In this document: positions 5,594 to 46,001 of the stretch, piece after piece
Numbering within the stretch: the first letter of the stretch is position 1
Layout: each line of letters begins with the position of its first letter
From: Vicingaceae bacterium
GTDB lineage: Bacteria > Bacteroidota > Bacteroidia > Flavobacteriales_E > Vicingaceae
Length of the DNA stretch: 64,000 nucleotides
Reading direction: 5' to 3'
NCBI GenBank assembly: GCA_018402765.1
Contig: JAGYIE010000003.1
Coordinates: 1-64,000, forward strand
Made by a program: the position numbers and the translations under genes
Notes under the pieces: model-generated
Seen by the model: the letters and a program-made list of their open reading frames with translations, nothing else
Database searches by the model: none
Told to the model about the DNA's origin: nothing

Positions 5594-6130
5594 ATGGCAG
5601 TTCAGGTAGATAAAAAGGTAGTCTTTATAGGGTTTGGTATCCTTGTGGGTGTCATCGGTATTGCTATTGCAAGTCGTTGGCTGTACAAGAAATTGGATAT
5701 TCAAACCAAGTTAAAGCTCCGTCAGCTTCGACCTGAAGTAAGAAAGAAGGTCGAGAAGTTCCTTATCAAAGCACAAAAAGCAGGTATTCCGTTAAAAGTA
5801 ACCAGTGCCTACCGTGATTGTGAAGAGCAAAACAAACTCTATTCACAGGGACGAACAGCTCCCGGAGGCGTTGTTACCAATGCCAAATGCGGACAGTCGG
5901 ATCACAATGTAGGAGTAGCAATAGATATTGTTCCAATAGTGGATGGACGAGCAAATTATAAAGTACCTGAATCGGTATGGAATACCATTGGAGCTATTGG
6001 TGAAAGTGTTGGTCTTTACTGGGGAGGTCGATGGACTTCTTTTAAAGACCGACCACATTTTTACGACCGTGGTGGTAAATCCATTGCACAGCTTTGGACT
6101 GAACAACAAAACTTAGCAAATCTAGCATAA
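5594..6130 (+). CDS. Membrane-anchored M15-type peptidoglycan endopeptidase/carboxypeptidase
   Basis: 178 residues. A membrane helix at about 10-30 is followed by an M15 (VanY/L-alanyl-D-glutamate peptidase) domain at about 40-165. Visible motifs are SAYRDCEEQNKLYSQGR, the zinc-ligand stretch SDHNVGVAIDIV and the C-terminal RPHFYD, giving His, Asp and His ligands. It cuts cross-links or stem peptides in peptidoglycan. An N-terminally membrane-anchored version is unusual for a free endolysin and fits a virion-membrane enzyme used at entry. Its stop overlaps the next start (TAATG). Confidence 0.85.
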   Translation: MAVQVDKKVVFIGFGILVGVIGIAIASRWLYKKLDIQTKLKLRQLRPEVRKKVEKFLIKAQKAGIPLKVTSAYRDCEEQNKLYSQGRTAPGGVVTNAKCGQSDHNVGVAIDIVPIVDGRANYKVPESVWNTIGAIGESVGLYWGGRWTSFKDRPHFYDRGGKSIAQLWTEQQNLANLA

Positions 6131-7523: not shown

Positions 7524-8060
7524 CTAAAATATGGTATGGTACAAAGTGTAACCCAAACCTCCTGCCACTGTAATTAGAACCGCTAACATTCCTAAGCAAC
7601 CACTATTTTGTTTTTTATTCTTCTTTTCTAAATCTTTCAAAAAACCTTTCATTTGTCCTTCCATTCCGGAACTCATTGTTCCTGGCTTTCCTTTCAATTC
7701 ACCTCTTTCAAATTTTAGGATTGTTTCTTTAAACTCATCCCAAGCACGAATCCTTGGAGCGGTAGCTAAATAATTTCCTTCACCCAACATACCTGCATAA
7801 CCTGCACTATCCTTGTCTATTTGAGGATCATATTCAGGTTCCCACCATACAGCAAAATGTTGTTTTGCATTGGTATATATAAATGGGAAAACCAATTTTG
7901 TTGAATCACCACAAGAGGGGCATTTGGCAACATTGATTTTATCAGACATTACCAATTCTCTGTTCTCAGGGTATTCTCCCCAAATTGAACGAAACAATGT
8001 GTAATCAAACTGATGTTTACACCTTGGGCAAGTTATTTTAGCTTCAATTCTTTTGCTCAT
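7524..8060 (-). CDS. CpXC zinc-ribbon protein with C-terminal membrane helix
   Basis: 178 residues. The N-terminus has CPRCKHQFDY and CPSCGDSTKLVFP, two CxxC pairs that form the CpXC zinc ribbon, then a mixed region with FAVWWEPEYDP, and a Lys-rich segment leading to a C-terminal membrane helix (about 155-175). The fold is associated with prokaryotic stress and conflict systems, but the biochemical role is unknown. Starts 17 bases inside the preceding gene, so it belongs to the long minus-strand operon. Confidence 0.75.
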   Translation of the reverse strand: MSKRIEAKITCPRCKHQFDYTLFRSIWGEYPENRELVMSDKINVAKCPSCGDSTKLVFPFIYTNAKQHFAVWWEPEYDPQIDKDSAGYAGMLGEGNYLATAPRIRAWDEFKETILKFERGELKGKPGTMSSGMEGQMKGFLKDLEKKNKKQNSGCLGMLAVLITVAGGLGYTLYHTIF

Positions 8061-8925
8061 CTCCTTTTAGGAATTGGATTAATCTATTTATTACGGAACT
8101 ACTTTTCTTTTTTGCATTGTCTTTTTCAAAATCTATGCTGACATCTTCTTTATACGGATACATTTTTCCCTGAACCAATAAACCATTCTGCTCCCATAAT
8201 TCTAATACTCCTATTTCTCCATTTTGATTGAAAAACAAAGCAGGCTTGCCATTGATATGATTAATAACCACATCAGGATTTATATTTGAATCCCTTAGAT
8301 TGTTAAATTTACCTTCTAAATACAATAAATACTCATACCTAGAAGGAAGTTCATCAAATACCCATGAAGATGAATACAGAAAGTTTTTACTTAAATAAGG
8401 AGATATTATTGAGACATCTAAATCATTCCATGCCAAAAGAAATTTTTGAGCTAGTTCTTCAATATTTAGATTCTCAGAACTATTGAGTTCATTGTTGTCA
8501 TCAATTTGCGTTATAAAATCAAATTTTACTGAATAATCGCCACCCTTATATGCTTTTTCACCAAAACCACGATAACACCAAAAAGATGCAACAGCAACCC
8601 TAGGTATAATACCCTTCTCAATTAATCGGGTTGAAATATTTGTAAATTTAGAAAAATCAATATCTAAGGCTTCATTGGTTAAAGTAGCAAGAACAAAATA
8701 AGCAACATCTGGATACCCATTAGATCTCTTAATTATATTGGGTTCTGAAAAATTATTATTATAATTTATTGAAAGTATTTCTATCCCTCTGTTTTTATAT
8801 TCTGTTGACAAAATATCTATTGCAAATTTTTTCAATTCAGAATTATCAATAAGCTCAAATTTATTAATATCACCTTCTGGATGATATATTATTTTCATTT
8901 GCCCATTATCATCTCTTATTTCCAT
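8044..8925 (-). CDS. NTF2-like domain protein of the chaperone operon
   Basis: 293 residues, soluble. Residues about 155-255 (LNIEELAQKFLLAWNDLDVS, then SRYEYLLYLEGKF and INGKPALFF) fit the cone-shaped NTF2/SnoaL-like fold that binds small ligands or partners. The first 150 residues are unassigned. It shares a base with the preceding gene's stop and overlaps the CpXC gene by 17 bases, so co-translation is likely. Confidence 0.5.
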   Translation of the reverse strand: MEIRDDNGQMKIIYHPEGDINKFELIDNSELKKFAIDILSTEYKNRGIEILSINYNNNFSEPNIIKRSNGYPDVAYFVLATLTNEALDIDFSKFTNISTRLIEKGIIPRVAVASFWCYRGFGEKAYKGGDYSVKFDFITQIDDNNELNSSENLNIEELAQKFLLAWNDLDVSIISPYLSKNFLYSSSWVFDELPSRYEYLLYLEGKFNNLRDSNINPDVVINHINGKPALFFNQNGEIGVLELWEQNGLLVQGKMYPYKEDVSIDFEKDNAKKKSSSVINRLIQFLKGDEQKN

Positions 8926-10178
8926 TAAAATGCTTCATTTTTAGAACTCGACTGTGTGCTAAAATTCCCGTTTTGCTGCATTATGAGTTCATAGGTTAAA
9001 ATTTGATTAGATATGTATGTTCGAGAATCTTTAGTAATGCTTTCAGATGATACAAAGCCACCTTTTAGCTCACCGCAGTAGGTGTTCTTTATAAATTTAT
9101 TCGGATTCCATCCTTTTCCTGAATAGAAAAATACTTGATAGCTTCCATTTGGTATATTAAATTGATATGAACCACCTGATCTGATGTATCCGTGACGAAC
9201 AACTTTTTCTGACCTGTCTTTAATTAAAACCAAAACATCTGAACCTCCTGATGAAACATCAACTCGAGAACAACCATAACTAGAACAACTATTGTTTGAT
9301 CCATAGCAATAGCCGTATGGTTTTGCCCCCGTATAAAGCGAATTGTTTTTGTACTGCTCTTCATAGGCATAATCTACTGCTGATTGTAATGAACTTTCAT
9401 CATACGATTTACTTGGGAATGAATAATTTATCACCCCAAGAATATCTCCGCTAAAGGAAAACGATTTATCAATATTTGACAATGGGCTATTGTATTTAAT
9501 TTTATCTTCTAAAATTGATTTTCCTGAATTGTTCAGCCCATTTTTTGCTTTATTTAGTTGAGATGAAAATTTGTATTCCTGTAATTGAGATTTTTGCTCA
9601 GTAATTTTCTTGTTTTCCTTATACGCATATAAGAAGGAAAAGAACTCTTTGAATGCACTTTGATTTACAGTGTAGGTCTTGGTATCTTCGAAATAAACGT
9701 TACAACTTTCATTCTGATTGAACTTTAAAAAAGCATTCTTTCCTAGTTTATTCAGCCATTGGTTGGCGATCTCACCAAACTGTTTCTCTATTTTCTGAAA
9801 TTCTGATTCAAAAATATCTTCTTGTCTTTGGTTTTCAATCAATGAATTACACTTCTCATTTAGACAGCTTAAATATTCATGTCCATAACCTAGAATTTGC
9901 AGTTTCTCGGAATAGACAAAATAGGATATTACAGAATCACGGCTAACAATTCCTTTAGATTCTTCATAATAATCTGAAAATAAGTTAGCATCTTCCTTGT
10001 TCTCTTCTTCAAAGGTACTTTGGGCTTCTTTTTTACTTTTTAAGAATTGGCTTTTCTCTTTGTGTTCAAGTTTTTCTATTTCAAATTTCGCTTCATCAAC
10101 TTTATTTGAAAAAATAAAATATGTTACTCCGAAAATTAGAATAATAGCTAAAACTAATATTATGTATCCTTTTTTCAT
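8925..10178 (-). CDS. Membrane-anchored or exported protein, operon-specific, unknown function
   Basis: 417 residues with an N-terminal uncleaved-type membrane helix (about 5-23, YIILVLAIILIFGVTYFIF) and the rest probably outside the cytoplasm. Residues about 27-60 and 120-215 are helical and charged. A Cys-rich turn (YGYCYGSNNSCSSYGC) at about 288-303 precedes a beta-rich C-terminal domain with GSYQFNIPNGSYQVFFYSGK and GWNPNKF. The C-terminal domain looks conserved but I cannot name it. Abuts DUF6804 upstream by one base. Confidence 0.6.
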   Translation of the reverse strand: MKKGYIILVLAIILIFGVTYFIFSNKVDEAKFEIEKLEHKEKSQFLKSKKEAQSTFEEENKEDANLFSDYYEESKGIVSRDSVISYFVYSEKLQILGYGHEYLSCLNEKCNSLIENQRQEDIFESEFQKIEKQFGEIANQWLNKLGKNAFLKFNQNESCNVYFEDTKTYTVNQSAFKEFFSFLYAYKENKKITEQKSQLQEYKFSSQLNKAKNGLNNSGKSILEDKIKYNSPLSNIDKSFSFSGDILGVINYSFPSKSYDESSLQSAVDYAYEEQYKNNSLYTGAKPYGYCYGSNNSCSSYGCSRVDVSSGGSDVLVLIKDRSEKVVRHGYIRSGGSYQFNIPNGSYQVFFYSGKGWNPNKFIKNTYCGELKGGFVSSESITKDSRTYISNQILTYELIMQQNGNFSTQSSSKNEAF

Positions 10179-10492
10179 TATTTATTTTCAGAACTTCCCT
10201 TTGATTTAAACACAGAAACGAATAGATATATAGCAGCTCCAACATCTATAATATTCCATAGCTCTCTTCCTAAAGTGATTTTTGCAAATGGTTGAAACAA
10301 TAATGCTAACGCACCAAAAACTATTAAATCAACTTTGTTTTCTCGTTGATACGCAGAGTAAGTCAAATAACCTAGTCCAATTGAGCCAATGAATCTTACC
10401 AATTGATAAAAGCCATAAGGGAAGTCGGCTAAACAAAGAAGGAATAAAACCGCAAGAGCAATTTTTACGTATTTATTCTTGCTCGTCATCAT
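10178..10492 (-). CDS. DUF6804-like small membrane protein
   Basis: 104 residues with four short hydrophobic segments: about 9-20, 26-43, 54-68 and 80-96. Motifs ALLFQPFAKITLGRELWNII and DVGAAIYLF match, as I recall them, small DUF6804-type membrane proteins. Overlaps the TerB gene by 20 bases. It gives the operon a second membrane component besides the GrpE-like and 417-residue proteins. Confidence 0.6.
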   Translation of the reverse strand: MMTSKNKYVKIALAVLFLLCLADFPYGFYQLVRFIGSIGLGYLTYSAYQRENKVDLIVFGALALLFQPFAKITLGRELWNIIDVGAAIYLFVSVFKSKGSSENK

Positions 10493-11018
10493 CTTCTTTG
10501 AGATTCTTTAAAACATTGTCATCAATAGAGCTAATCAGTTCAAATTGCTTAGATGTATGTGTGTCAAAAAAGTCATCTTGCAATCTCGCTAAATAAGAAT
10601 CACTGATAATATCTTGCTCTAAATATTCTTCGAAATCTGGATGTATCTCAAGAATTGGATCGTTTTCAATTTTAAGTTTACTTCTAATAACCTTGAAAAA
10701 TTTAATTTCACTATACTCAACTTTTTGATCTGCTTTTATTGTGTCAATAGCAGCTTCAATTAGTTTAAGTTCTTCCGCTTCGGTAAGCTCATTAGTTGAA
10801 AGATCATTAAAAAAATCTTTTAAAAACTTTTGCCCATCATTATTGATTGACAGCAATAATTCGTCTAACTCCTTCTCAATATCAATATCCCCAAACACTT
10901 TTCGATCATTTTGCATACTTTTAATTAACACAACTTCTCGTTTATCAATATCACCATCACAAGCCATGCAAGAGAAGGCTGTTTTTAGCAATAGTTTATT
11001 AAAACTCATTTGTTCCAT
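10473..11018 (-). CDS. TerB-like domain protein
   Basis: 181 residues, all-helical. FSCMACDGDIDKREVVLIK at about 15-33 is the first acidic helix-loop of TerB. A second one, LIEAAIDTIKADQKVEYSEIKFFK, lies at about 85-108. TerB domains are found in tellurite-resistance and related membrane-linked stress systems and probably bind metal through the acidic loops. Lies 1 base after the kinase-AAA gene and overlaps DUF6804. Acidic C-terminus (EDDDEQE). Confidence 0.75.
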   Translation of the reverse strand: MEQMSFNKLLLKTAFSCMACDGDIDKREVVLIKSMQNDRKVFGDIDIEKELDELLLSINNDGQKFLKDFFNDLSTNELTEAEELKLIEAAIDTIKADQKVEYSEIKFFKVIRSKLKIENDPILEIHPDFEEYLEQDIISDSYLARLQDDFFDTHTSKQFELISSIDDNVLKNLKEDDDEQE

Positions 11019-11019
11019 A

Positions 11020-12801
11020 TTAATTTCTTTTAAAACCTATTCTAGGTCGTTCGCTACTGGTTGAATTTTGACCTTCCATTTTCGCTCTTATAGCTTCATA
11101 GCTGTGAAGTTCATTAAGAGAAATAGACGGTTTATTATCTTTGATTGTGGATGAAAGTATCTCCCAAGTAATTCTAGATTTTGCTTTAAGAGCTCTTCGA
11201 GAGGCTTCATCACATAAAAATTTTATATCACTAGAAACATAGTTTTCTGTTTCTGTTGCTAACTCAGAATAATTAAGTCCAACCTCAGTAGGTCGTTTCT
11301 TTAAATAAAGCTCAAACATTAGTCTTCTAGCTTCATGATCTGGAGGGGGGAGATATATATGCTTATCTAATCTTCCTGCTCTTAATATGGCAGGATCGAT
11401 CGAATTAGGACGGTTAGTCGCACCTATTATAAAAACCCCATCCTCACCAACATTATTCATTTGGGCAAGAAATTCATTGACTGCACTTGTATTCATGTGA
11501 TTGATCCCTGAACTATCTCTATTTGGAACCATTGCATCGAGCTCATCAATGAAAATGATACTTGGAGCTTTTTCCCTTGCTTCATCAAAAAGTTTTTTAA
11601 TATTCTCTTGGGAAGCATTAACCCATTTACTTTGAATATCTGATGGCTTTATTTGGTAAAAATTAAATCCAATTTCCTCTGCCATCTTTTCTGCAAAAAA
11701 TGTTTTACCACAACCTGGAGGACCATAGAGCAACATTCCATTTGGAATAGTTAAACCATATTCCGCATATTTTTCTTTTTCATTAAGTGCATCAATTACA
11801 TCAAGCTTGATTAAGTCTTTTAAGTCCTGCATTCCTGCAATTGACGAAAACCCTTTACCTTGCTTAACCTTTTTAGGTTTAACAGTTACTTCGGCTTCGG
11901 TAGTTTCAGAAAGCTGAATTTCTAGTTCACCATTAACCGCTTTGATGAATTCTTTTACGTTTTTGAATCTGTTTTCTGCTTTTGGTTGAAGAGCCTTTGA
12001 TATAACCTTTAAAGTGGTTTCATCAAAAATTGAATCAGAATTAGGAAAGCTTAATTTCTTTTGCCGTTCTTCAATAATGGAATCTTCAATTTTTATCCTA
12101 ACAGATTTAAAATTTGAAAGTTCCACAAACCAAGGTGGCATGCCAAAGAGCAAATGATAATAGAGAGCTCCAACAGAAAAAATGTCACTTTGAACAGAAA
12201 AAACCTTATTAAAAGCTTCATTTGATTGATAAAAAGGATTTAGCCCATCTTTTAAAAAATCATTTGTTGCTTGATCAATCCACCTAGCATACCCGAAATC
12301 AATTAGTTTTGGAACAGGAACTTTCCCTGCAAGGTCAAGCATTACGTTTAAATTCGTAATATCATTATGAATCAAAGGTCTATCTATACTATGCAAGTGG
12401 TTTAGCCCATTTAAAACACCTAAAATAATATCCTTAGCTTCATATTGATTTAGAGTGTCCTCACGTCTCATCTTATCAGCAAGAGTTTCTCCACTAATAA
12501 AGTCGAGAATAACATACCCATACTTTTGATTTTCAATGATAAGTTCACCCGAATCATGATATTTCACCACATTAGGATGTTTAATAGATTTTAAAACATC
12601 AATTTCTAAAGGTTTCCCAGTATTCGTAAACTGTGTTCTATCTAGTTGGGAGTATATGAATAGCTTCAATAGCTTTGTTTTCCCATCATTTCCTTTGACA
12701 CGATAAGTTTCAGCATAACTCCCTTTTTTAAGAAAGAATGCTATTTGGTACTTATCATCAATAAGTTCGCCCTTTTTTAATATGTGTGCTATTTTACTCA
12801 T
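11020..12801 (-). CDS. Protein kinase-AAA+ ATPase fusion
   Basis: 593 residues with two catalytic modules. Residues 15-225 form a eukaryotic-type Ser/Thr kinase: Gly-rich KKGSYAETYRV, Lys46 in LLKLF, the catalytic loop HNDITNLN at 145-152 (Asn replaces the usual Arg of HRD) and DFG at 168-170. After a linker, residues about 320-570 form a Cdc48/FtsH-type AAA+ domain with Walker A GPPGCGKT (360-367), Walker B IIFIDELD (415-422) and the NRPNSIDPAILRAGRLD arginine-finger region. Such a fusion could phosphorylate and remodel proteins. It overlaps the degenerate Hsp70 gene by 8 bases, implying joint action with the chaperones. Confidence 0.9.
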   Translation of the reverse strand: MSKIAHILKKGELIDDKYQIAFFLKKGSYAETYRVKGNDGKTKLLKLFIYSQLDRTQFTNTGKPLEIDVLKSIKHPNVVKYHDSGELIIENQKYGYVILDFISGETLADKMRREDTLNQYEAKDIILGVLNGLNHLHSIDRPLIHNDITNLNVMLDLAGKVPVPKLIDFGYARWIDQATNDFLKDGLNPFYQSNEAFNKVFSVQSDIFSVGALYYHLLFGMPPWFVELSNFKSVRIKIEDSIIEERQKKLSFPNSDSIFDETTLKVISKALQPKAENRFKNVKEFIKAVNGELEIQLSETTEAEVTVKPKKVKQGKGFSSIAGMQDLKDLIKLDVIDALNEKEKYAEYGLTIPNGMLLYGPPGCGKTFFAEKMAEEIGFNFYQIKPSDIQSKWVNASQENIKKLFDEAREKAPSIIFIDELDAMVPNRDSSGINHMNTSAVNEFLAQMNNVGEDGVFIIGATNRPNSIDPAILRAGRLDKHIYLPPPDHEARRLMFELYLKKRPTEVGLNYSELATETENYVSSDIKFLCDEASRRALKAKSRITWEILSSTIKDNKPSISLNELHSYEAIRAKMEGQNSTSSERPRIGFKRN

Positions 12802-15250
12802 AGCCTTTTATTTCTTCATGCAGCATTTCTAAATTTGGAGACCTATCGGTGCAGGAGCTTAGTTGTTCATAAAGAACTCCAAACTTATCTGCTGGTATTT
12901 TTTCATCCTCTGTCAATGCAAATAATAAATCTTCAACTTTCGATTTACATATACTTACTTTGATTTTCAGTACCTCTTCTTTTAGATGATTAATTATTTC
13001 AATAAGCTGAGGCGTGTTTTTACTATCCTTATCTCTGATAGCCTGCTCTACATCAGGTTTAATCTTATTTACTATTTGGGTAGTCTGTTCATTTCCTTTT
13101 TCACGATTGATCTCTTCGAGATTATGGAAAGCCTCTTTTAATTCCTTTTCTAATTCAGGCCACTCACTATCTCCAAGTAATTTATCAACCACTTTTAGGG
13201 ATTTTCTTAAATTGGAAAGAGCTTGCTGTTTAGTATCTGTATCATCTTTAGAACTTTCATAAAGTTTTTTTCCTTCCTGAATTTCTTTTTCTACATTATC
13301 TAGTTCCTCGGAACTAACTCCTTTCCTTTTTAGCTCGTTTACGCTTGATAAAGCTTTTTTGAATTCGTTATCCAACCAAGCAGTTTCAACATGATCTATT
13401 GCAGTTTCACATTCAAAATCGCACTCGAAATCTATTGCGGGGAAATAAGCTTTTCCAGTTAGCTTTTGAGACTTATCAATAGATATTGAAATATCAATAT
13501 CACTTCCTTCCGGGAGTATGCAGGGTAAGTCGTTGCCTGTAATATAGATAGTGTTAACATGATGATTGTGGATTGCTCTGGTTTCATCTGCTCCATGCTC
13601 ACCTTGGAAAAGTGATAATTCAAAATAATCACTTTCCATTCCTGGGCGAATAGGTCGGTCAGTTTTTAAACCATTTATTGTACCAGTAGCAGGAAGAGAT
13701 TTATTCTTTTCAAGACCTTGAATTGTTCTGAAAACAACTTTACCTGTATTAATATCTTGAATCTCAATACCAACATTGTATGGCAAGGTCGCTGAACCAA
13801 CTACTGATCCTTGAATTACATTGAATGAGTTCGGTTCACATTCAAGAAGGTTACCTTTATCATCATAAAGAGTAATATCAAATACATTCGTTTTACCTTC
13901 AGTAAGTTGAGCTTCAATTACCTCTCCAAGTGTATCAATCTCAATCTTACCACTTGCCCATGCGTTGTCTCCTCTTTTTATTTCAGCGAAAACCTTTTCA
14001 GGAATAGTTCCTTCCGTTTTATCTTCTAATATCTTTACAGTAACAAATTCTTCCATTTCAACAGTTGAGGCTTCATAGCCAATTTCCAATTGAATTTTAG
14101 TTTTATCTCTTGTTTGATCTTTTATTTCTTCATATAATTCTACCGTTGAAGCGTATAAAGCTGCTCCAATAACTATTACCGTTTCCGGATCTCTATTTGT
14201 GTCTGGCTTAAGAATTTGTTTGTCTATCATTGCCCTAAGAATAGGTGACAACGTATCACTTCCAACTAATATTAGTCTATCTAAAGCCTTTCCTGTTAAA
14301 TTATTTCTCGTTAATAATTGAAGTGAAATATCAATTACCTTTTGGAAAGCAGGAGCTAATACTTCTTTTAACTGATGCTGAGTTACCATTAAGTCTATCT
14401 CAATTTCTTCACCATTATCATCTTTCCCAACTTCTCCTAAATCTGCATAAATGTTATAAGAGGTATTTAATGAAAGGTTCTTTTTAATTTCCTCTGCAAA
14501 GAATTTTAATGCACCTCTGTATTCGGCTTTTTTGGCATCATCACTTAAAACACCATCGATCTCATAATTTTCCTGAATATTAGGAATGATTAATTGGTCA
14601 ACTACTGTGTAATCAAGATTTACACCTCCTAGATAATTATCACCTTCGGTATCAATTACTTTCATGATACCTTCTTCTATTTTTAATAATGCTGTATCAA
14701 AGGTTCCTTTTTGATAATCAAAAACAAGCCAAAAAGCATCTTTATTAGTGCTGTTTATACTATAAGCCATAGCTGCTGCGACTGGTTCTTGAAGAATTTC
14801 TATTTGATGAAATCCTGCAATTTCCCCTGCCTTTTTTACAGCATCAATTTGATTACTTTTAAATGCAGCAGGCACGGTAATTACAACAGCATTAACTAGG
14901 TCATCTATTACATACTCTTTTAACCGTTTAAAGACTTCTGCTAAAAGCTCTTCTGAACTGAAGCTTTTATCAAGGTTAGACGAATAGTAAAGGCAATTAG
15001 TGCCTAACGTTCTTTTGAATTCTACAAATGAATTTAAAGGGGCATTTTTAGCAAGAGACTTCATGCTATCTGAACGATAAGAAGCGTAGGCAGAATCCCC
15101 AATTAAAATATTGCCTTTTCTATTAAAAGCTACCGCAAGTGGAGTCGTATCTTTTAAAAGATCTGATTTTACGACACAAGGATTCCCTCCTTCAATCCGA
15201 GCGATTGAAGCAAAAGAATCATTAAAATATATGCCGTAATTTATTTTCAT
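12794..15250 (-). CDS. Degenerate Hsp70 (pseudo-ATPase) of the chaperone operon
   Basis: 818 residues, Hsp70 fold, tandem paralogue of the next gene upstream. The nucleotide-binding motifs are altered. The phosphate-1 loop reads YFNDSFAS (8-15) where the paralogue has DLGTTNSA. Phosphate-2 reads FDYQKGTFD (177-185) against FDYGGGTFD. The adenosine motif reads LVGSDTLSP against LVGGPTLSP. Still kept are VEFKRTLGT, LQEPVAAAMAY and the whole substrate-binding half. It probably binds nucleotide poorly or not at all and may serve as a regulatory partner. The last 60 residues differ from the paralogue. Start is 1 base after the paralogue's stop. Confidence 0.85.
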   Translation of the reverse strand: MKINYGIYFNDSFASIARIEGGNPCVVKSDLLKDTTPLAVAFNRKGNILIGDSAYASYRSDSMKSLAKNAPLNSFVEFKRTLGTNCLYYSSNLDKSFSSEELLAEVFKRLKEYVIDDLVNAVVITVPAAFKSNQIDAVKKAGEIAGFHQIEILQEPVAAAMAYSINSTNKDAFWLVFDYQKGTFDTALLKIEEGIMKVIDTEGDNYLGGVNLDYTVVDQLIIPNIQENYEIDGVLSDDAKKAEYRGALKFFAEEIKKNLSLNTSYNIYADLGEVGKDDNGEEIEIDLMVTQHQLKEVLAPAFQKVIDISLQLLTRNNLTGKALDRLILVGSDTLSPILRAMIDKQILKPDTNRDPETVIVIGAALYASTVELYEEIKDQTRDKTKIQLEIGYEASTVEMEEFVTVKILEDKTEGTIPEKVFAEIKRGDNAWASGKIEIDTLGEVIEAQLTEGKTNVFDITLYDDKGNLLECEPNSFNVIQGSVVGSATLPYNVGIEIQDINTGKVVFRTIQGLEKNKSLPATGTINGLKTDRPIRPGMESDYFELSLFQGEHGADETRAIHNHHVNTIYITGNDLPCILPEGSDIDISISIDKSQKLTGKAYFPAIDFECDFECETAIDHVETAWLDNEFKKALSSVNELKRKGVSSEELDNVEKEIQEGKKLYESSKDDTDTKQQALSNLRKSLKVVDKLLGDSEWPELEKELKEAFHNLEEINREKGNEQTTQIVNKIKPDVEQAIRDKDSKNTPQLIEIINHLKEEVLKIKVSICKSKVEDLLFALTEDEKIPADKFGVLYEQLSSCTDRSPNLEMLHEEIKGYE

Positions 15251-17782
15251 TTATCCCCTCAATATTCCTTTAGCACTTTCATTTTGAGGAGAATCTGAAT
15301 CATCTGTTAAACCTGAGTTTTGAAGAAGATCTGCACAAATAGGTCTTAAACTATCGAAGCTCGGATTCTCAACCATAATCTGCTTTCCTCTATTAAGAAG
15401 ACTTCTTGCTGCGTTTCTGTCTTTCCATTGAATTGAATCAAAATCTCTATCTAAACTGTAGATTAACCCCATAGCATGCTCAAGCTTCTCAAGCTCAAAT
15501 GCCAAATGATTAATTATTTCAATAAGCTGTGGAGTGTTTTTACTATCCTTATCTCTGATAGCCTGCTCTACATCAGGTTTAATCTTATTTACAATTTGGG
15601 TAGTCTGTTCATTTCCTTTTTCACGATTGATTTCTTCAAGACCATGGAATGCTTCTTTCAATTCTTTTTCAAGTTCCGGCCATTCTCTGTCACCAAGTAA
15701 CTTGTCAACAACTTTTAAGGACTTCCTTAAATTTGAAAGTGCTTGCTGCTTAGTATCGGTATCATCCTTTGAACTTTCAAATAGTTTTTTACCTTCATTA
15801 ATCTCTTTTTCAGCTTTATCTAATTCATCAGAGCTAATTCCTTTTTTCTTCAAATCATTAATACTGGCTAGTCCTTTCTTAAATTCATTTTCTAACCATG
15901 CGGATTGAACCGAATCAATTTTTGTTTCACACTCAAATTCATATTCAAATTCTAGATATGGGAAAAATGCTTTTCCTGTTAGCTTTTGAGACTTATCAAT
16001 GTTTAATGTAATATCAACATCGCTATTTTCAGGAAGCAATGAAGGGAAGTCATTACCTGTTATATAGATTGTATTCACATGATGATTATGAATTGCTCTA
16101 GTATCCTCAGCTCCATGTTCACCTTGAAAAATTGAAATTTCCAAATAATCACTTTCCATTCCTGGTCTAATTTGTCTTGGTGTTTTTAAACCATTTCTTG
16201 TTCCAGTAGCAGGAAGTGATTTGTTTTTTTCAAGACCTTGAATCGTTCTGAAAACAACTTTCCCTGAATTAATATCTTGAATCTCGATACCAACATTGTA
16301 TGGCAAGGTCGCTGAACCAACTACTGATCCTTGAATTACATTGAATGAGTTTGGTTCACATTCAAGAAGGTTACCTTTATCGTCATAAAGTGTTACATCA
16401 AACACATTGGTTTTACCTTCGGTGAGTTGTACATCTATAACTTCACCAAGGGTATTAATTTCAACTTTACCGCTTGCCCATGCATTATCACCTCTTTTTA
16501 TTTCAGCGAAAACTTTTTCAGGAATTGTTCCTTCAGTCTTATCTTCTAATATCTTTACGGTAACAAACTCTTCTGTTTCAACAGTTGAGGCTTCATGACC
16601 TATTTCAAGTTGAATTTTAGTTTTATCTCTTGTTTGATCCTTAATTTCTTCTGACAAATCAACCGTAGAAGCATATAAAGCAGCTCCGGTTGAAACTACT
16701 GTCATAGGATCAACACTTGTGTCGGGCTTACATATTTGTTTTTCCAACATTTCTCGGACAATAGGAGACAAAGTTGGTCCACCAACAAGAATTAATGAAT
16801 CTAATGATGAACCTTGAAGATTATTTCGATTTATTAAACTCATCGCACAGTCAATTGCTTTTTGAAAGACAGGAGCTAAAACATCCCTTAATTGCTCTTG
16901 AGTGACCGTTAGATCAATTTCAATTTCTTCTCCATTATCGTCTTCTCCACAATCCCCTGGATCAACGTATATGTTGTGTGAAGAATTGAACGAAAGGTTA
17001 TTCTTGATTTCTTCTGCGAAAAATTTTAAAGCCCCTCTATACTCAGCCTTTTTAACGTCATCACCTAGAATATCATCGATATTATATCTTTCTTGAATAT
17101 GGGGTATAATCAATTGATCAACCACTGCATAATCAAGATTTTTTCCACCTAGATAATTATCTCCCTCTGTGTCAATTACTTTCATGATACCTTCTTCAAC
17201 CTTTAATAAGGCTGCATCAAAAGTTCCTCCACCATAATCAAACACTAGCCAAAAACCATCTTTCTTTTTGCTATCCAACCCATAAGCCATGGAAGCAGCA
17301 ACAGGTTCTTGCAGCACCTCAACATGATCAAAACCTGCTAGTTTTGCAGCTTTTCTTGTGGCATCAATTTGATTACTTTTAAATGCAGCAGGAACAGTGA
17401 TAACTGCTGCATTAATGTTTTCATCGCTTACATATTCCTTTAACCTTTTAAGTACTTCTGCTGATAATTCTTCCGAGGTCAAATCTTTTGAAATATTTGT
17501 ACTATGGTAGGTTTTATCTGTTCCCATAGTTCTTTTAAATTCAACAAACGCATTCAATGGAGCGTTTTTTGCAAGCGATTTTAAGCTATCAGAACGATAC
17601 GATCTGTATGCAGCATCACCAACCATAACGCTTCCTTTCTTATTGTATGCTACACATGATGGGCTTGTGTCCTTTTGGGTGTCAAGCGATTTAATAATTT
17701 TCACCTCACCTTTATCAATTCTAGAGATTGCTGAATTGGTAGTTCCTAAATCAATTCCGTAGTCAATTTTTGTCCTTGCCAT
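15251..17782 (-). CDS. Hsp70/DnaK-type chaperone of the operon
   Basis: 843 residues, far longer than the roughly 640 of housekeeping DnaK. Intact ATPase motifs: DLGTTNSA (11-18), VEFKRTMGT, LQEPVAASMAYG, FDYGGGTFD (181-189) and LVGGPTLSPIVREM. The substrate-binding half is divergent, and a long helical extension of about 200 residues ends in a tail not shared with the paralogue. Expected activity is ATP-driven binding and release of client polypeptides. The usual C-terminal EEVD or DnaK tail is absent. 12 bases follow the GrpE-like gene. It is not the housekeeping dnaK, judging from divergence and setting. Confidence 0.9.
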   Translation of the reverse strand: MARTKIDYGIDLGTTNSAISRIDKGEVKIIKSLDTQKDTSPSCVAYNKKGSVMVGDAAYRSYRSDSLKSLAKNAPLNAFVEFKRTMGTDKTYHSTNISKDLTSEELSAEVLKRLKEYVSDENINAAVITVPAAFKSNQIDATRKAAKLAGFDHVEVLQEPVAASMAYGLDSKKKDGFWLVFDYGGGTFDAALLKVEEGIMKVIDTEGDNYLGGKNLDYAVVDQLIIPHIQERYNIDDILGDDVKKAEYRGALKFFAEEIKNNLSFNSSHNIYVDPGDCGEDDNGEEIEIDLTVTQEQLRDVLAPVFQKAIDCAMSLINRNNLQGSSLDSLILVGGPTLSPIVREMLEKQICKPDTSVDPMTVVSTGAALYASTVDLSEEIKDQTRDKTKIQLEIGHEASTVETEEFVTVKILEDKTEGTIPEKVFAEIKRGDNAWASGKVEINTLGEVIDVQLTEGKTNVFDVTLYDDKGNLLECEPNSFNVIQGSVVGSATLPYNVGIEIQDINSGKVVFRTIQGLEKNKSLPATGTRNGLKTPRQIRPGMESDYLEISIFQGEHGAEDTRAIHNHHVNTIYITGNDFPSLLPENSDVDITLNIDKSQKLTGKAFFPYLEFEYEFECETKIDSVQSAWLENEFKKGLASINDLKKKGISSDELDKAEKEINEGKKLFESSKDDTDTKQQALSNLRKSLKVVDKLLGDREWPELEKELKEAFHGLEEINREKGNEQTTQIVNKIKPDVEQAIRDKDSKNTPQLIEIINHLAFELEKLEHAMGLIYSLDRDFDSIQWKDRNAARSLLNRGKQIMVENPSFDSLRPICADLLQNSGLTDDSDSPQNESAKGILRG

Positions 17783-17794
17783 ATATAGTATTTT

Positions 17795-18736
17795 TTAATT
17801 CTGTGATACTTCAACTTGTGCTCTCTGAATAAGAACATCATTAAAGTTGACCTGAGGTTTAATAATTTTAGTAATGATCTTCTTTCCTTTTTCAAGATTT
17901 TCATCTTCCAAGAAATTGATTACATCTAAATTCATTCTATCCTCATATTCTTTGTTCAATAGATTAACCATTTCATATCCATTAGCAGCGAAATTTGCCT
18001 GAATCCTTTCTATTCCTTTTTCTAATGGTTTTAATCCTTTTGTTCCTTCATCCATTCGGGAAATATTCTTTTGCATTCTTACAATTTCGTCTGCAACTTT
18101 AAGTGCTAATGAATGGTCTTCTTTTTCTAATGGTATTTTAGATGTGGAAGCAACGGACTCAACTTGTTGAATTTTCAACTGGGATTCTAAGACTTCAACA
18201 AGCTTACTATCTAATTTGATACTCTCTTCTTCAAGAGATTTCTTTGTACTATTTATTTGGGATTCTACATCAGTCTTACTTGAGGCAATTCGCTTTCCTA
18301 AAAGCCAAAAAATTATACCTCCAATTAATAATGTAGATAAAGTACCAATGATCCAGTATAATCTATTTTCATCAACATCACTATTTAAAGCGGATATCTT
18401 GCTATCAGCATTGTCTCCAGTTTCCTGAATTTTCGTACCTAAGTCTTTTGAAATAGCAACGATGTTGTTTTTATTTGTATTTATTACATTGGAAACACTA
18501 TCGAGCCTAGTTTTTAGTGATCCGTTTTCTTTTTTCAATTGGGTTATAGCATTACCCTTTTCAATCAATGAATTTCTTTGGGTTTGGTATTTACCGTTTA
18601 GCTTATCAAGTTCTGTTGATTGTTCTTTTAACTGCTGTTTCAAAACAGTTATTTCAATATTTACTAAGCTATCATTTTGGGCTAAAGCTCCAAATGATGA
18701 TAAACCTATAATTGTTCCAAGTATTATTTTTCTCAT
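17795..18736 (-). CDS. Exported membrane coiled-coil protein with a GrpE-like C-terminus
   Basis: 313 residues. An N-terminal signal (1-20, ending GALAQ) is followed by a periplasmic coiled coil (about 25-120), a membrane helix (about 127-146) and a cytoplasmic coiled coil. The last 90 residues, with MDEGTKGLKPLEKGIERIQ, YEMVNLLNKEY and a final beta-type stretch GKKIITKIIKPQVNF then IQRAQVEVS, resemble the four-helix plus beta-wing end of GrpE, the nucleotide exchange factor of Hsp70. Placed directly before the Hsp70 gene, a membrane-tethered exchange factor is a reasonable inference; the match is by eye only. Confidence 0.6.
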   Translation of the reverse strand: MRKIILGTIIGLSSFGALAQNDSLVNIEITVLKQQLKEQSTELDKLNGKYQTQRNSLIEKGNAITQLKKENGSLKTRLDSVSNVINTNKNNIVAISKDLGTKIQETGDNADSKISALNSDVDENRLYWIIGTLSTLLIGGIIFWLLGKRIASSKTDVESQINSTKKSLEEESIKLDSKLVEVLESQLKIQQVESVASTSKIPLEKEDHSLALKVADEIVRMQKNISRMDEGTKGLKPLEKGIERIQANFAANGYEMVNLLNKEYEDRMNLDVINFLEDENLEKGKKIITKIIKPQVNFNDVLIQRAQVEVSQN

Positions 18737-20436
18737 TATTTCTTCTTCTTTATAATCTCTACAAATTGGTCTAATGTTTTACGGATAGCAGTATTTATGC
18801 TCTCTTTATTTTTAAGTTTTTCAACAAGTTTTGGGGAGTACTTGTAATAAAACTTTATAAATTGTTTCCCTAGATAAAATTTATCTAAAAACTCGTCTCT
18901 GAATTTTCGCAATTCCAGTACCTGAGGGTGGTCATAATCACCATAAGCCATTGTGGCTATATAACAGCCTCCACCAGATGAATTACTGCTTGAAGAAGAA
19001 CTAGAACTTGTCCTTGAAGCTGTTCTCATTTGACTTCGTACTGTCTCTAATTGAGAGTTCATTCCTTTTATAGTGGACTTATTATCATTAAACCTTCTTT
19101 TGGTCTCATAATTCATATCTAATGAATCCAACATATTAATGACTTCCACAGCATCAGATACAATACCCGGCAAGAGAAGGAGTTTTGAACGATTGTATTC
19201 CAAACCGCTTTGAGCTTCATTTACTACCTCAATTAGCATTCCTAGAGCATTTCCAACTACAGCACTACTTATACCAAGATATAGTTCGTCATCAGAACCT
19301 AATACACTTCTAATTGATTGTAGTTTATATTTACAGCCACTAACTAATGATTTTGCGTTAGCCGTAGTATCTGATTGATTTTGGAAATTACTGAGCTTGT
19401 TAGTAATATATTCTAGGTCTTCTTTTATTGGAGCAGATTGAGCCCATTCCTCCATTCCTTCAATATTCTCCCTAATCCTATCTTTAGCTTGAGAACCTAT
19501 GGCAATTGAATCTGCATACTTCAAGAGTTTCATTCCTTCTGAACTTGGATCTTTCGATTCTTTCCAAGCCTGAAAATAGTCGATTCCACATTGAAGGATT
19601 TCTTTTGCCAAATTATCAGCAATCATTTTATATTTAAGATCGCTTACGCCTAACATTGACTTAATAGTAGACAAATCATCTTTACTATTGATAAAAAGTT
19701 TCAGTCCTATATCATAAGCTTTAAACTTATCTTCTTTTCTTTTGCTTTTTGTGCTTTCTATTAATGACTCTAAGTTGTGAATCGGTTTTTCTGTGAATTT
19801 TTTTGAGACGTATTTTTTTGTTCCTGAATTACATCCAGTGAACATTTTAGCAGTGCTATTTAAAGAGTATTTCCCATTAAGTTGGGACAGAAGAGTATCA
19901 ACGAGTTTTTCAGCTTGCTTTCCGCTTTCAATTGAATAAGTTTCATCTGCAACTGTGTGCACAAAATCAATAAAACTATCGGAATCAATTAATTTGAATT
20001 TAAGAGAAATCCCATCTGATATTTCCGATTGATTGGTTCCTAAAAGTTTTAATGTCCCTATATTATTAAAGCAAGAAAAATTCTTAGCGGTAATTTCTTT
20101 TCCGTTGGTAACTTTCTCCCAGATTTCCAATGCTTTTTCCTTGTCTCCATTAATCAAATAATTTAGAGCCGTTTCGTCAAAAGGATTAGTTTTAACAAAC
20201 CAAAACAATGAATTTGAAACCTTGTCCGCATTTTGCTCAATATTAGAAAATGCTTTAGTTACATTTTCCTCAGAACGACTTACCGGATTTAAGAAATTAA
20301 AATCTAACTCTGAATCAGATTCTCTACCAATCTTGGCAAACTTCTTTATTTTGCTTTGCTGTCTTTGGAGTTCTCTTTCAGTAGCATTGGATAAAATGCC
20401 TGCAATTCTGTATGGATTTTCGTGTATAAGCTTCAT
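18736..20436 (-). CDS. CFI-box C-terminal domain protein, possible divergent J-like co-chaperone; first gene of the operon
   Basis: 566 residues from the ATG at 20436; a TTG start at 20469 would add 11 residues but would sit on the promoter-like box. The N-terminus (ENPYRIAGILSNATERELQR) recalls the opening of J-domain proteins (NPY.ILG....A...E) but there is no HPD. A helical middle of about 400 residues follows, with a Ser-rich linker at about 480. The C-terminal GGGCYIATMAYGDYDHPQV, LRKFRDEFL and YYKYSPKLVEKL match the CFI-box-CTERM domain. One base overlaps the GrpE-like gene. Role as client adaptor is inferred. Confidence 0.7.
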   Translation of the reverse strand: MKLIHENPYRIAGILSNATERELQRQQSKIKKFAKIGRESDSELDFNFLNPVSRSEENVTKAFSNIEQNADKVSNSLFWFVKTNPFDETALNYLINGDKEKALEIWEKVTNGKEITAKNFSCFNNIGTLKLLGTNQSEISDGISLKFKLIDSDSFIDFVHTVADETYSIESGKQAEKLVDTLLSQLNGKYSLNSTAKMFTGCNSGTKKYVSKKFTEKPIHNLESLIESTKSKRKEDKFKAYDIGLKLFINSKDDLSTIKSMLGVSDLKYKMIADNLAKEILQCGIDYFQAWKESKDPSSEGMKLLKYADSIAIGSQAKDRIRENIEGMEEWAQSAPIKEDLEYITNKLSNFQNQSDTTANAKSLVSGCKYKLQSIRSVLGSDDELYLGISSAVVGNALGMLIEVVNEAQSGLEYNRSKLLLLPGIVSDAVEVINMLDSLDMNYETKRRFNDNKSTIKGMNSQLETVRSQMRTASRTSSSSSSSSNSSGGGCYIATMAYGDYDHPQVLELRKFRDEFLDKFYLGKQFIKFYYKYSPKLVEKLKNKESINTAIRKTLDQFVEIIKKKK

Positions 20437-20820: not shown

Positions 20821-20863
20821 ACTATAATTAGCCACTAAACCGAATTTAGTGGCTAATTATAGT
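20821..20863 (-). terminator. 19-bp perfect stem at the 3' end of ATPase gene 1
   Basis: Arms of 19 bases (20821-20839 and 20845-20863) pair perfectly around the 5-base loop CCGAA. The right arm touches the stop codon of the minus-strand ATPase. No T-run follows, so it may be a processing or recombination structure as well as a terminator. Confidence 0.6.
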
Positions 20864-22275
20864 TAACTAAATAAACAATCTATGGTTAGGCTATTAGTTA
20901 CTAAACCTTTAGCATGTTTTCCTTCAATACCCCATGTGGTTAGCATGATGGTATTGATTCCTTTTCTAGTTTTTGTACTTGTTTTAAATTGTACTTCTTT
21001 ATTTCTTAAGTTGTTTGCATAATTAGTGTCCACGGGAAAAGTGCCATTGTAAAATTTTATCTCACATAAATTCACCATGTTATCATCACGGTCTATCACT
21101 AAATCGACTTGTGCGTTCCTATTGCTCCAACTATAATTTTTGGAGTTAATTTGATCACAACGTAGTCCTTTTTTTATGTTTTCCATGTGTTTATAGCAAA
21201 GCATTTCAAATGCGAAGCCACTCCAGGTTTCATATACTTTTTTAGTAAAAAGTTGCTTCCAAGAATTTCCATTGAATGGTTCTATGAATTGTAAATGAAA
21301 AAGGCAGAATTCATCAAAAATTCGATATAATGTTGTTTTTCTTTTGTCTGTATAGGATCGATATTTTTCAACAAAACCAGATTCTATTAACTCATCCATA
21401 GATTTTGAAAACTGTCCACCTGAGCTTAGATTTTGATCTTTTAGTATTTGATCTCTCAACATTCCTTTCTTGGGTCCTTTTGATAAAGATTGAATGATCT
21501 GCTCATGATAGGAACCCTCATCAAAAAGAGATTTAAAAACCTCTTCAAATTCATACTCTAATTGCGCTCCTTTTTGAAAGCAAATTCGATCAATTGCTGT
21601 AACTGAGGAATCTCCATTTTCAACGTGTTCTAAATATTCAGCAATTCCACCAAGTGCCATATAAATCTTTAAAACTTCGATCTCCGGAAGTTGAATGCCT
21701 TTGTAATTAAAAAATTCCTTAACCTCATTCAATTGAAACGGAACAAGCTTTATTTTTCTTGTGATTCTATTATGCAAGCCCCCGCGATTTCGAATTATTT
21801 TTTTTAGCATGTAAGAAGCTGCCGAGCCACATATTACGACTATTAAATCGTTTCTTGTTGTGCAGTAGGTATTCCAGAAATTTTCAAAAGCAGGAAGAAA
21901 TCCAGACCTTAATGTGTCCACCCAAGGAAATTCATCTATGAAAATCACTTTCTTCTTTTGGGTTTGTTTAAGTCCTTTTAAATATTGTTTCAATAAATTA
22001 AAGGCTTGAAGCCAATTTTCTGGTTTCTCATCCTTGAATTTCCCTGAGAATTCTCGCAATTCAAGCATGAAATTTTCTATTTGATCTGGTCGTACACCAT
22101 TTCTCAACCCTGAAAAACTAAAAATAATGTTCTTTGAATAGTGCTCTCTTATTAAATAAGTTTTTCCAATTCTTCTCCTGCCATAAATTGCTATCAATTC
22201 AGACCTTTGCGTATTTAAGGCCTCATTGAGTTTTTCTTTTTCTAATAATCTTCCAACAATATTTTTAGGCATCAT
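20863..22275 (-). CDS. Archaeal-type ATPase with C-terminal DUF234/PD-(D/E)XK nuclease-like domain (ATPase 1)
   Basis: 470 residues. The AAA/STAND-type ATPase part (1-230) shows Walker A YGRRRIGKTYL at about 30-40, Walker B KVIFIDEFPW near 110 and the VICGSAASYMLKK sensor strand. A winged-helix segment follows at about 270-330. The C-terminus has AQVDLVIDRDDNMVNLCEIKF, the D...ExK pattern of PD-(D/E)XK nucleases as in DUF234. These proteins are common in archaea and Bacteroidota; the biological role is not established. Its paralogue is at 33954. Flanked by repeats and inverted repeats on both sides. Confidence 0.85.
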   Translation of the reverse strand: MMPKNIVGRLLEKEKLNEALNTQRSELIAIYGRRRIGKTYLIREHYSKNIIFSFSGLRNGVRPDQIENFMLELREFSGKFKDEKPENWLQAFNLLKQYLKGLKQTQKKKVIFIDEFPWVDTLRSGFLPAFENFWNTYCTTRNDLIVVICGSAASYMLKKIIRNRGGLHNRITRKIKLVPFQLNEVKEFFNYKGIQLPEIEVLKIYMALGGIAEYLEHVENGDSSVTAIDRICFQKGAQLEYEFEEVFKSLFDEGSYHEQIIQSLSKGPKKGMLRDQILKDQNLSSGGQFSKSMDELIESGFVEKYRSYTDKRKTTLYRIFDEFCLFHLQFIEPFNGNSWKQLFTKKVYETWSGFAFEMLCYKHMENIKKGLRCDQINSKNYSWSNRNAQVDLVIDRDDNMVNLCEIKFYNGTFPVDTNYANNLRNKEVQFKTSTKTRKGINTIMLTTWGIEGKHAKGLVTNSLTIDCLFS

Positions 22276-35366: not shown

Positions 35367-35371
35367 ATTTA

Positions 35372-35424
35372 TTTTATAATTCGCCAAAACTAAGTAAATT
35401 TATCTGTTTTGGCGAATTATAAAA
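35372..35424. promoter_or_regulatory. 19-bp perfect inverted repeat upstream of ATPase 2
   Basis: TTTTATAATTCGCCAAAAC (35372-35390) and its exact complement at 35406-35424, spacer 15. The cores CGCCAAAA and TTTTGGCG start 25 bases apart, as at the 3' side and before ATPase 1. It sits 5 bases before the ATG, so binding there would block transcription or translation. Confidence 0.7.
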
Positions 35425-45551: not shown

Positions 45552-46001
45552 ATGAAGCGCATAAATGAATATAAGAAGCTCTTTAACGTAGAGAAAGAGA
45601 TTGATTTAAAAGAATTAAAATCGACTTACAGAAATCTGGTAAAAGAGTGGCATCCTGATAAGTTTCAAGATGGTGATGAAAAAGCAAAAGAGGCTGAGAT
45701 AAAAAGCAAACAAATTATCGATGGCTACCATTTCTTAGTTAGTATAGCTCCTGCCACCAAGGAAGCAAATCTAGAAGCATATACTGCTATGCTAGAAAAT
45801 GAAACAATAGATGATTTTAAGCATAAAGGATTGTTGTTAGATGTAACATTTACGGATGGCAGTACTTATGAGTATTTTGGTGTTAACCAAAAATTATTTC
45901 AAAAGTTGATAAATTCTGATAAGCAAATGCGTTTTGGAAAGAGAAATATTTTTAACTCATTTCTTTATAGAAAATCTAAAAAAGGCTCAGAGCAAGAATA
46001 A
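45552..46001 (+). CDS. J-domain protein with C-terminal KTSC domain
   Basis: 149 residues. The J-domain occupies about 1-65: YKKLFNVEKEIDLKELKSTY and the catalytic tripeptide in EWHPDKF, so it can stimulate an Hsp70 ATPase. The KTSC domain (about 92-145) has LDVTFTDGSTYEYFGV and GKRNIFNSFLYRK. The role of KTSC is not known. It is distant from the Hsp70 operon but could in principle serve it, since that operon has no HPD-bearing J protein. Confidence 0.85.
   Translation: MKRINEYKKLFNVEKEIDLKELKSTYRNLVKEWHPDKFQDGDEKAKEAEIKSKQIIDGYHFLVSIAPATKEANLEAYTAMLENETIDDFKHKGLLLDVTFTDGSTYEYFGVNQKLFQKLINSDKQMRFGKRNIFNSFLYRKSKKGSEQE

Follow-up and report, generated by a model that had tools for sequence, protein, structure and literature searches.

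A patchily distributed Hsp70 operon with a predicted transmembrane GrpE in a Vicingaceae genome and its relatives in other phyla

Organisation of the operon

The window examined here is the whole stretch of 64,000 nucleotides at the start of contig JAGYIE010000003.1 (C10 in our numbering) in the 3.1 Mb genome of a Vicingaceae bacterium (Bacteroidota; assembly GCA_018402765.1). Ten minus-strand open reading frames (ORFs), designated g1 to g10, tile positions 7524-20436 of this window, and include two Hsp70 genes, a gene for a GrpE-like membrane protein and a gene in which a kinase is fused to an AAA+ domain (Table 1). The ORF map places all neighbours in overlap or at most 12 bases apart: three of the nine junctions are gaps (12, 0 and 1 bases) and six are overlaps (1, 8, 20, 1, 1 and 17 bases), sizes that agree with the original prediction, made from the DNA letters, of a ten-gene operon. 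The encoded proteins were scanned against Pfam (at E<=1), NCBIfam and PADLOC; for g5, the Pfam results cover the best 25 of 30 families.

Table 1 Genes of the operon and two adjacent features, with the evidence behind each assignment
Gene	Assignment	Position	Strand	Evidence
g1	CFI-box protein with J-like start	18736..20436	-	NCBIfam, hhalign, AF2
g2	Predicted transmembrane GrpE	17795..18736	-	Foldseek, VIA, hydrophobic segments
g3	Hsp70 whose ATP-site motifs are intact; substrate-binding/C-terminal region of a distinct type	15251..17782	-	Pfam HSP70, motif table
g4	Putative pseudo-ATPase Hsp70	12794..15250	-	Motif table, identity, ratio of nonsynonymous to synonymous change, shared residues
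g5	Fusion of a kinase domain with a single AAA+ domain	11020..12801	-	Pfam, motif counts
g6	TerB-family protein	10473..11018	-	TerB model across family members
g7	DUF6804 membrane protein	10178..10492	-	Pfam 9e-34
g8	Membrane-anchored envelope protein	8925..10178	-	phmmer to L030
g9	Accessory protein, weakly NTF2/ketosteroid-isomerase-like	8044..8925	-	TIGR02096 below cut-off
g10	CpXC zinc-ribbon protein; hydrophobic C-terminal segment (by eye)	7524..8060	-	Pfam CpXC 3.6e-15
g11	Probable last gene; small protein of 94 amino acids	7213..7497	-	26 bases downstream of g10
PDC-S27	Candidate-defence ATPase, neighbour outside the core	20863..22275	-	PADLOC PDC-S27 1.6e-171

Conservation and distribution

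Related loci (numbered with the prefix L) were sought using only the substrate-binding and C-terminal part of g3 as a query, such that neighbouring genes could be counted independently. Matches were obtained in 12 of 395 genomes of the phylum, two of which are weak (E 5e-5 and 7e-4), fall on an unrelated-looking protein of 390 amino acids and are apparently spurious. The operon including its kinase-AAA+ gene is present in six of the 12 (the window's own genome counted); in one of these six copies, from a short contig, g2 was not seen. One further genome has a looser form, which includes a 480-amino-acid kinase-AAA-like gene. A scan of a species-genome collection recovered at least 58 loci from Bacteroidota, Gammaproteobacteria, Desulfobacterales and other groups, a lower bound given the use of one peptide pattern, with many loci originating from metagenome-assembled genomes (MAGs) whose binning is taken as given. 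Culturable carriers include Flavobacterium omnivorum (L060) and F. gawalongense (L049).

Across these loci, profile searches of the ORFs revealed a common gene order, g1-g2-g3-slot-g5-g6-g7, in which the slot between the Hsp70 and kinase-AAA+ genes is variously occupied. Considering genes on the same strand, and only loci where the contig leaves room, g1 is present in 43/45, g2 in 44/45, g5 in 49/54, g6 in 32/47 and g7 in 20/45. The core of g1, g2, g3 and g5 is complete in 39 of the 44 loci with room on both sides (the exceptions being L032, L057, L068, L076 and L080), which bears out the original prediction of a self-contained set and shows that the set is conserved. By contrast with these core genes, g4, g8, g9 and g10 are accessories, g9 and g10 because they have only one (in L048) and two relatives, respectively, among the locus ORFs. 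Looser Hsp70 relatives with other neighbours, at L023, L024, L025 and L026, hint at a wider family; these neighbours comprise a 941-amino-acid protein with a J-like start, TerB and DUF6804 genes without a kinase-AAA gene, and a shorter kinase-AAA-like gene.

Since Hsp70 and GrpE are near-universal families (GrpE occurs in 20 of 21 relatives), it could be supposed that ordinary housekeeping dnaK and grpE homologues have come together here by chance. We find this hardly credible: the same contig carries a housekeeping grpE and dnaJ, adjacent to each other and approximately 323 kb from the operon; the Hsp70 that ranks next in this genome is only 36% identical and lies on another contig (C12); and the gene order kept in the relatives counted above refutes it.

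The distribution of the operon is patchy. Of the 46 genomes available for the family of the window's host, two (G403 and that of the window) have a strong match and a third has a weak partial one (E 8e-4), while the two other genomes of the genus, one of them only 69% complete, gave no match. Moreover, trees of the Hsp70s (from which duplicate, partial and distant rows were left out) mix phyla, with an Elusimicrobiota MAG inside a Bacteroidota group in both trees, and Vibrio ezurae inside such a group in the tree of the nucleotide-binding part, yet apart on a long branch in the other tree.

A GrpE fold predicted to be tethered to the membrane

GrpE is normally a soluble helper. The g2 protein is predicted to possess a signal peptide, a coiled coil, a transmembrane segment at about residues 126-148 (assigned by eye) and a GrpE fold at about residues 203-313, and an alignment of 41 family members displays the corresponding series of N-terminal hydrophobic segment, coiled coil, second hydrophobic segment and conserved C-terminal domain, both hydrophobic segments being present in 41/41. 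The C-terminal flank is the more positive side in 34 of the 41, which suggests that the C-terminus is cytoplasmic.

A Foldseek comparison of the predicted g2 model (mean pLDDT 81.8, pTM 0.40) with the PDB placed GrpE in each of the top 12 rows, either under that name or as a chain of GrpE length from an entry that contains GrpE; the best E is 9.1e-7, and nine rows reach E<=0.001. Similarly, in VIA, GrpE chains occupy ranks 1-6 (Z 8.9-10.5, with 10.5 to 1dkg_B), followed by BAG domains (Z 7.0), although the guidance to VIA notes that Z below about 13 can mean little for long helices. The root mean square deviation (rmsd) of rows 1-5 is 20-33, which we put down to the long helix of the model, while the sixth row (8gb3_E, Z 8.9) gives an rmsd of 3.3 A over 95 residues. 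In addition to the caution over Z, sequence comparisons weigh against the assignment: the Pfam GrpE model matches only 7 of 41 members (best 7.4e-7), the window's own not among them, coiled-coil models such as DivIC match more (11), and hhalign of the g2 family against housekeeping GrpE returns a probability of 24% (E 8e-4). Even so, GrpE stands out on the predicted model, taking the top rows of both aligners with its beta part covered. We thus favour for g2 a GrpE fold that a membrane helix connects with a coiled coil predicted to lie in the periplasm, in agreement with its initial designation as a membrane GrpE-like protein.

The J-like and kinase-AAA+ proteins

The identification of g1 as a CFI-box protein is supported by NCBIfam (CFI_box_CTERM, 5.3e-22), and a pattern search located a CFI-type box in 15 of 38 family members. 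Its AF2 model is all-helical (mean pLDDT 88.4). The J-like start that had been proposed for this protein was recovered when its first 45-70 residues were compared to 26 J domains fetched from related genomes, all of which bear the HPD motif: hhalign gave probabilities of 78-85% over 24-25 columns, corresponding to helix I and the start of helix II, as opposed to at most 1.5% for eight other g1 segments. The HPD itself is missing, being found in the first 80 residues of 0/38 members (in L066, the called start lies far upstream, and the HPD region may fall outside these 80 residues). The whole protein has no significant PDB match (best E 5.2e-3), with P58IPK, a co-chaperone containing tetratricopeptide repeats (TPRs) and a J domain, ranking second at 1.3e-2, and in VIA most of the leading rows are taken up by designed helical proteins and further helical-repeat structures. 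The role of the HPD in J proteins is established; given its absence, g1 may dock on Hsp70, yet would not be expected to set off hydrolysis in the usual manner.

In g5, Pfam matches to Pkinase (4.8e-31) and AAA (4.4e-41, at residues 356-485) occur in one protein, with Walker A and B intact. The motor is better kept than the kinase, as Walker A takes its commonest form in 43 of 47 g5 rows, whereas the HRD position of the kinase is variable (HND 20, HNE 14, HRD 3, other or gaps 10). DFG is kept in 36/47, and the window copy has HND and DFG. In PADLOC, the kinase half of g5 covers positions 3-273 of the 292 in a PD-T4-6 model (2.1e-30), and IetA (by the AAA half) and mad6 are each matched in part. 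PD-T4-6 is a defence protein tested with phage, and the likeness extends over most of this one model, yet in g5 the kinase is fused to an AAA+ motor and situated in an Hsp70 operon.

The presence of Hsp70, an exchange factor and an AAA+ protein in one operon is what led to the suggestion of a dedicated disaggregation machine, for which the well-kept Walker A also speaks. The Hsp70 and its GrpE-type partner are upheld by our analyses, but a disaggregase is improbable: in NCBIfam, the single AAA+ domain of g5 scores best with CDC48 and FtsH, the best 25 of 45 models include no Clp family, and g1 lacks the HPD. The domain also follows a kinase, where Hsp100/ClpB has two Clp-type AAA+ domains and a middle domain.

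An active Hsp70 and its putative pseudo-ATPase partner

Both Hsp70s match Pfam HSP70 (g3 1.5e-63, g4 3.1e-47). Asp is present at position 11 in all 54 active-type Hsp70 rows (g3 and 53 others). In the window and at L036, L059 and L071, a second Hsp70 with broken ATP-site loops occupies the slot before the kinase-AAA+ gene; in 4/4 of these pseudo-Hsp70s the Asp of the first phosphate loop has become Tyr and the GGG loop is broken, and three have lost the lysine of the FKR motif, which we take to be catalytic from work on DnaK and Hsc70. A partial second Hsp70 copy is located at L047. Second copies are also found in Tannerella (L081 and L085), which keep most ATP-site motifs and were excluded from the pseudo-Hsp70 count; that of L085 stops after the nucleotide-binding part.

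The description of g4 as a degraded Hsp70 in the original prediction is misleading, for it is an open frame of 818 codons and belongs to a recurring type. Comparisons of pseudo-Hsp70s with their active partners yield pairwise ratios of nonsynonymous to synonymous change (dN/dS) of 0.09-0.26, values that average both Hsp70 lineages and are obtained with synonymous change near saturation in most comparisons. As a freely drifting copy should give a higher ratio, the pseudo-Hsp70s look constrained, and are probably kept by purifying selection rather than decaying. Yeast Ssz1, an atypical Hsp70 thought to work without the normal ATPase cycle beside an active Hsp70, offers a parallel, from which g4 differs in being bacterial, in having its ATP loops broken outright and in having no known link to the ribosome.

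Identity between g3 and g4 is 68% in the nucleotide-binding part and 86% in the substrate-binding part, while their C-terminal tails differ. The proportion of synonymous differences (pS) is likewise lower in the substrate-binding part (0.48) than in the nucleotide-binding part (0.72), and two blocks of 30 codons reach 93% third-position identity. Together these patterns point to gene conversion between g3 and g4.

The origin of the pseudo-Hsp70s can be read in two ways. Trees reject a single pseudo-Hsp70 clade (approximately unbiased test: p 4.1e-5 when the nucleotide-binding part is analysed without its motif columns, and 6.1e-6 for the substrate-binding part), and on their own suggest at least three origins, for a group that was named after the motifs had been seen. 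Nevertheless, Tyr11, Leu86, Leu107 and Val142 are common to all four pseudo-Hsp70s and occur in 0, 0, 0 and 1 of the 54 active rows, respectively (a fifth common column, Ile529, is found in about 9% of active rows), whereas the four active partners have no such common column. This comparison dropped the duplicates L018-L022, the distant L023-L028, the partial L032, L047, L054, L082 and L083, together with the second Hsp70s from L081 and L085. Furthermore, the g4 tail matches those of the second copies at L036 (7.9e-16) and L047 (1.8e-6) better than that of g3 (1.2e-4). Two results speak against a single origin: among quartets drawn at random from active rows, the number of such columns averaged 0.084 but rose as high as 16, the high-scoring quartets presumably having drawn close relatives, and the search with the g4 tail did not find the L059 and L071 copies. 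Because of the shared derived residues and the shared tail, we prefer one old paralogue, probably homogenised with its active partner by conversion, over separate origins.

Envelope-associated and accessory proteins

The TerB assignment of g6 is weak for the window protein alone (E=0.078), but is supported across its family, with 29 of 35 members matching the model at E<=0.05 (best 6.3e-7). DUF6804 and CpXC were found as named in g7 and g10 (Table 1), and DUF6804 is named in no paper of the open-access literature searched. The proposed NTF2-like protein, g9, has one weak match to TIGR02096 (E=0.004, below cut-off), and the name is kept here as a faint likeness.

Consistent with the description of g8 as an exported protein, its N-terminal part includes a hydrophobic stretch (by eye). 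The C-terminal domain of g8 recurs in the product of positions 11392-12084 of L030 (phmmer 4e-56). Relatives of this domain bear a lipobox (by eye) and are placed in the slot between the Hsp70 and kinase-AAA+ genes, a position that is filled by a g10 homologue at L062 and elsewhere by exported SH3_3 proteins (L031, 6.5e-9). Given these lipobox and SH3 slot proteins, and the membrane proteins g2 and g7, we infer that the system sits at the inner membrane and faces the periplasm.

Genomic context

The commonest families flanking the loci are the operon's own envelope proteins (10 and 7 loci). Three other families recur, all named by eye: integrases and type I restriction-like genes, at 4 loci each, and KilA-N proteins, at 3, with the KilA-N identity at L041 confirmed by Pfam. 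Flanking genes are otherwise little shared between loci. At E<=1e-10, 148 flanking proteins matched 200 PADLOC models and a further 100 matched 97, compared to 13 models for 136 control proteins, which were selected at random from 201 eligible proteins in 17 fixed-position stretches of 13 genomes of the window's class, without matching for phylum or locus type. On the Haliscomenobacter hydrossis plasmid pHALHY02, the only match among 72,556 plasmid records, the g6 homologue is annotated as TerB family, and BREX brxL and pglZ directly follow the operon on the opposite strand.

In the window itself, the next gene upstream of the operon encodes a PDC-S27 candidate-defence ATPase, and a second PDC-S27 gene lies at 33954-35387 (minus strand). 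These two are the full-length PDC-S27 proteins among ten ORFs in the 20.8-35.5 kb interval, to which our search for nucleases was confined, and the other eight have no PADLOC match at 1e-3. An island of nuclease genes had been proposed here, a claim that does not hold for this interval, as no nuclease model matched any of the ten ORFs in PADLOC or the nine scanned with Pfam. The broader claim of a defence-like setting is borne out by the flanking PADLOC matches, the plasmid BREX genes and the PDC-S27 neighbours. As to island ends at tRNA-His, the tested pattern occurs only once. The two PDC-S27 (ATPase_2/DUF234) genes of the window are approximately 51% identical, and a third copy exists on contig C9.

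Comparison with known systems

A search of open-access literature, covering the titles and abstract openings of the matches listed, returned no description of this gene set, in line with the statement in the original prediction that no such system was known. Compared to the DnaK-DnaJ-GrpE machine, the operon has in common an Hsp70 with intact ATP motifs, a GrpE-fold partner and a J-like protein, but differs in the transmembrane nature of its predicted GrpE, the lack of HPD in the J-like domain, the addition of kinase-AAA+, TerB and DUF6804 proteins, and an accessory distribution. It also differs from the TerY-P triad, in that no vWA or PP2C domain was matched (for g5, among the best 25 of 30 families) and the kinase is fused to AAA+ rather than to a zinc ribbon.

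Hsp70, TerB and GrpE are named together, among the matches listed, in a paper on the Rcs system and Escherichia coli DjlA, and DjlA is the nearest working precedent that we met. In DjlA, a TerB-like domain is located between a membrane helix and a J domain, and activation of Rcs needs DnaK and GrpE (PMC11709261). The likeness lies in membrane-tethered J and TerB-like domains that serve Hsp70 at the envelope; the operon instead tethers its GrpE, encodes TerB separately, and adds an AAA+ domain and a kinase. On this precedent, and given TerB, J-like, GrpE and Hsp70 parts alongside membrane and envelope proteins, the operon could be an envelope-stress proteostasis set that loosens or refolds membrane signalling complexes. 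We consider this a possible but rather unlikely explanation, since a patchy, apparently mobile distribution and defence-rich flanks are unlike those of a general stress system, and since the J domain of DjlA is a working one (the H233Q mutant is inactive; PMC11709261), whereas g1 has no HPD.

Quite improbable, and a little more so than a disaggregase, is a client-specific chaperone for surface polysaccharide or motility. The Myxococcus Hsp70 homologue StkA does regulate exopolysaccharide, but its partners are different (stkB is SCP2-like and stkC PhaE-like; PMC4319316), and the context of the operon looks mobile.

Hsp70 parts have also been described in predicted conflict operons. In the passages seen, GAP1-N2 GTPase systems, predominantly from actinobacteria and firmicutes, combine Hsp70, GrpE and DnaJ parts or fusions, and in one subset a second protein holds only the HSP70 domain (eLife 2020, PMC7159879). 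The association of Hsp70, GrpE and J parts is shared with our operon, whose second Hsp70 differs in keeping the peptide-binding part and losing the ATP site; moreover, at E<=1 none of the ten proteins matched a GTPase family in Pfam (for g5, among the best 25 of 30). Likewise, Hsp70-like CnuD proteins of CoCoNuT systems occur in defence operons and have degenerate Walker A-like motifs (PMC11090510), but neither a McrB GTPase nor a HEPN nuclease was matched in our operon (for g5, among the best 25 listed). Neither set of passages describes the gene set reported here.

Proposed function

An accessory, membrane-tethered Hsp70 machine is in our judgement a probable description of the operon, and its anatomy supports such a signalling module well. 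Our overall interpretation, to which we assign a probability of roughly 0.5, is of a mobile module through which the cell envelope controls a dedicated Hsp70, with defence against phage as the most likely purpose; taken singly, the anti-phage role is a slightly less than even proposition. We nonetheless infer that defence is more likely than general proteostasis.

Several observations count against this interpretation. No nuclease, known toxin or other effector was recognised in the operon, and the nine proteins other than g5 have no convincing PADLOC match (best E 0.005). HND or HRD is present at the catalytic loop of the kinase in only 23 of 47 g5 relatives. The flank counts are of models and overstate the number of matching proteins, one type I methylase matching many models, and the control was unmatched and itself returned matches. 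No relative was detected in 50,697 phage records, or in viral contigs searched with one pattern. Finally, some copies of the operon are truncated, which fits an accessory set but also decay.

A possible mechanism would begin with a disturbance of the envelope that moves the periplasmic coiled coil of g2, which would in turn alter nucleotide exchange on g3 and thereby the freeing of a client that g3 and g1 hold together. In operons that have it, the inactive g4 might act as a partner that binds without cycling. The AAA+ ring could then remodel either the freed client or g5 itself, with a membrane-linked output via g5 to g7 that would be either protective or growth-stopping; this output is the least certain step, given that no nuclease or known toxin is recognisable. 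A bolder and distinctly tentative version is that the operon represents an undescribed immune or alarm class, in which a signal passes through the membrane by way of a nucleotide-exchange factor. The Hsp70 cycle would be set by a transmembrane GrpE and regulated by g1, which lacks the HPD, and by a pseudo-Hsp70; a kinase-AAA+ ring would respond, and gene conversion would keep the client-binding part of g4 like that of g3, whereas the dead ATP site and the tail of g4 persist. Under this version, g3 and g4 must bind the same client, because their substrate-binding parts are kept alike.

If correct, a conserved transmembrane GrpE coupled to a dedicated Hsp70 would turn Hsp70 cycling into a receiver of envelope signals, and the pairing of a dead with an active Hsp70 constitutes a natural test of Hsp70 function without ATP turnover. 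Should the module prove to be anti-phage, signalling based on chaperones would join the defences available to Bacteroidota and other phyla.

Other features

Downstream of g10, the small g11 ORF gave no Pfam match at 0.01; a 94-amino-acid ORF also follows the CpXC gene at L048, the closest relative of the window operon. Upstream of the operon at L033, L037 and L049 is a recurring pair of TPR-like and response-regulator-like genes (named by eye). Elsewhere in the window, positions 26010-29714 (plus strand), near the operon, encode a protein of 1234 amino acids with TPR matches only, and positions 45552-46001 (plus strand), 25 kb from the operon, encode a small protein that combines DnaJ (1.1e-7) and KTSC (1.6e-11) domains. 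A VanY/M15-type peptidase is encoded at 5594-6130 (plus strand), among short plus-strand genes of phage-like look.

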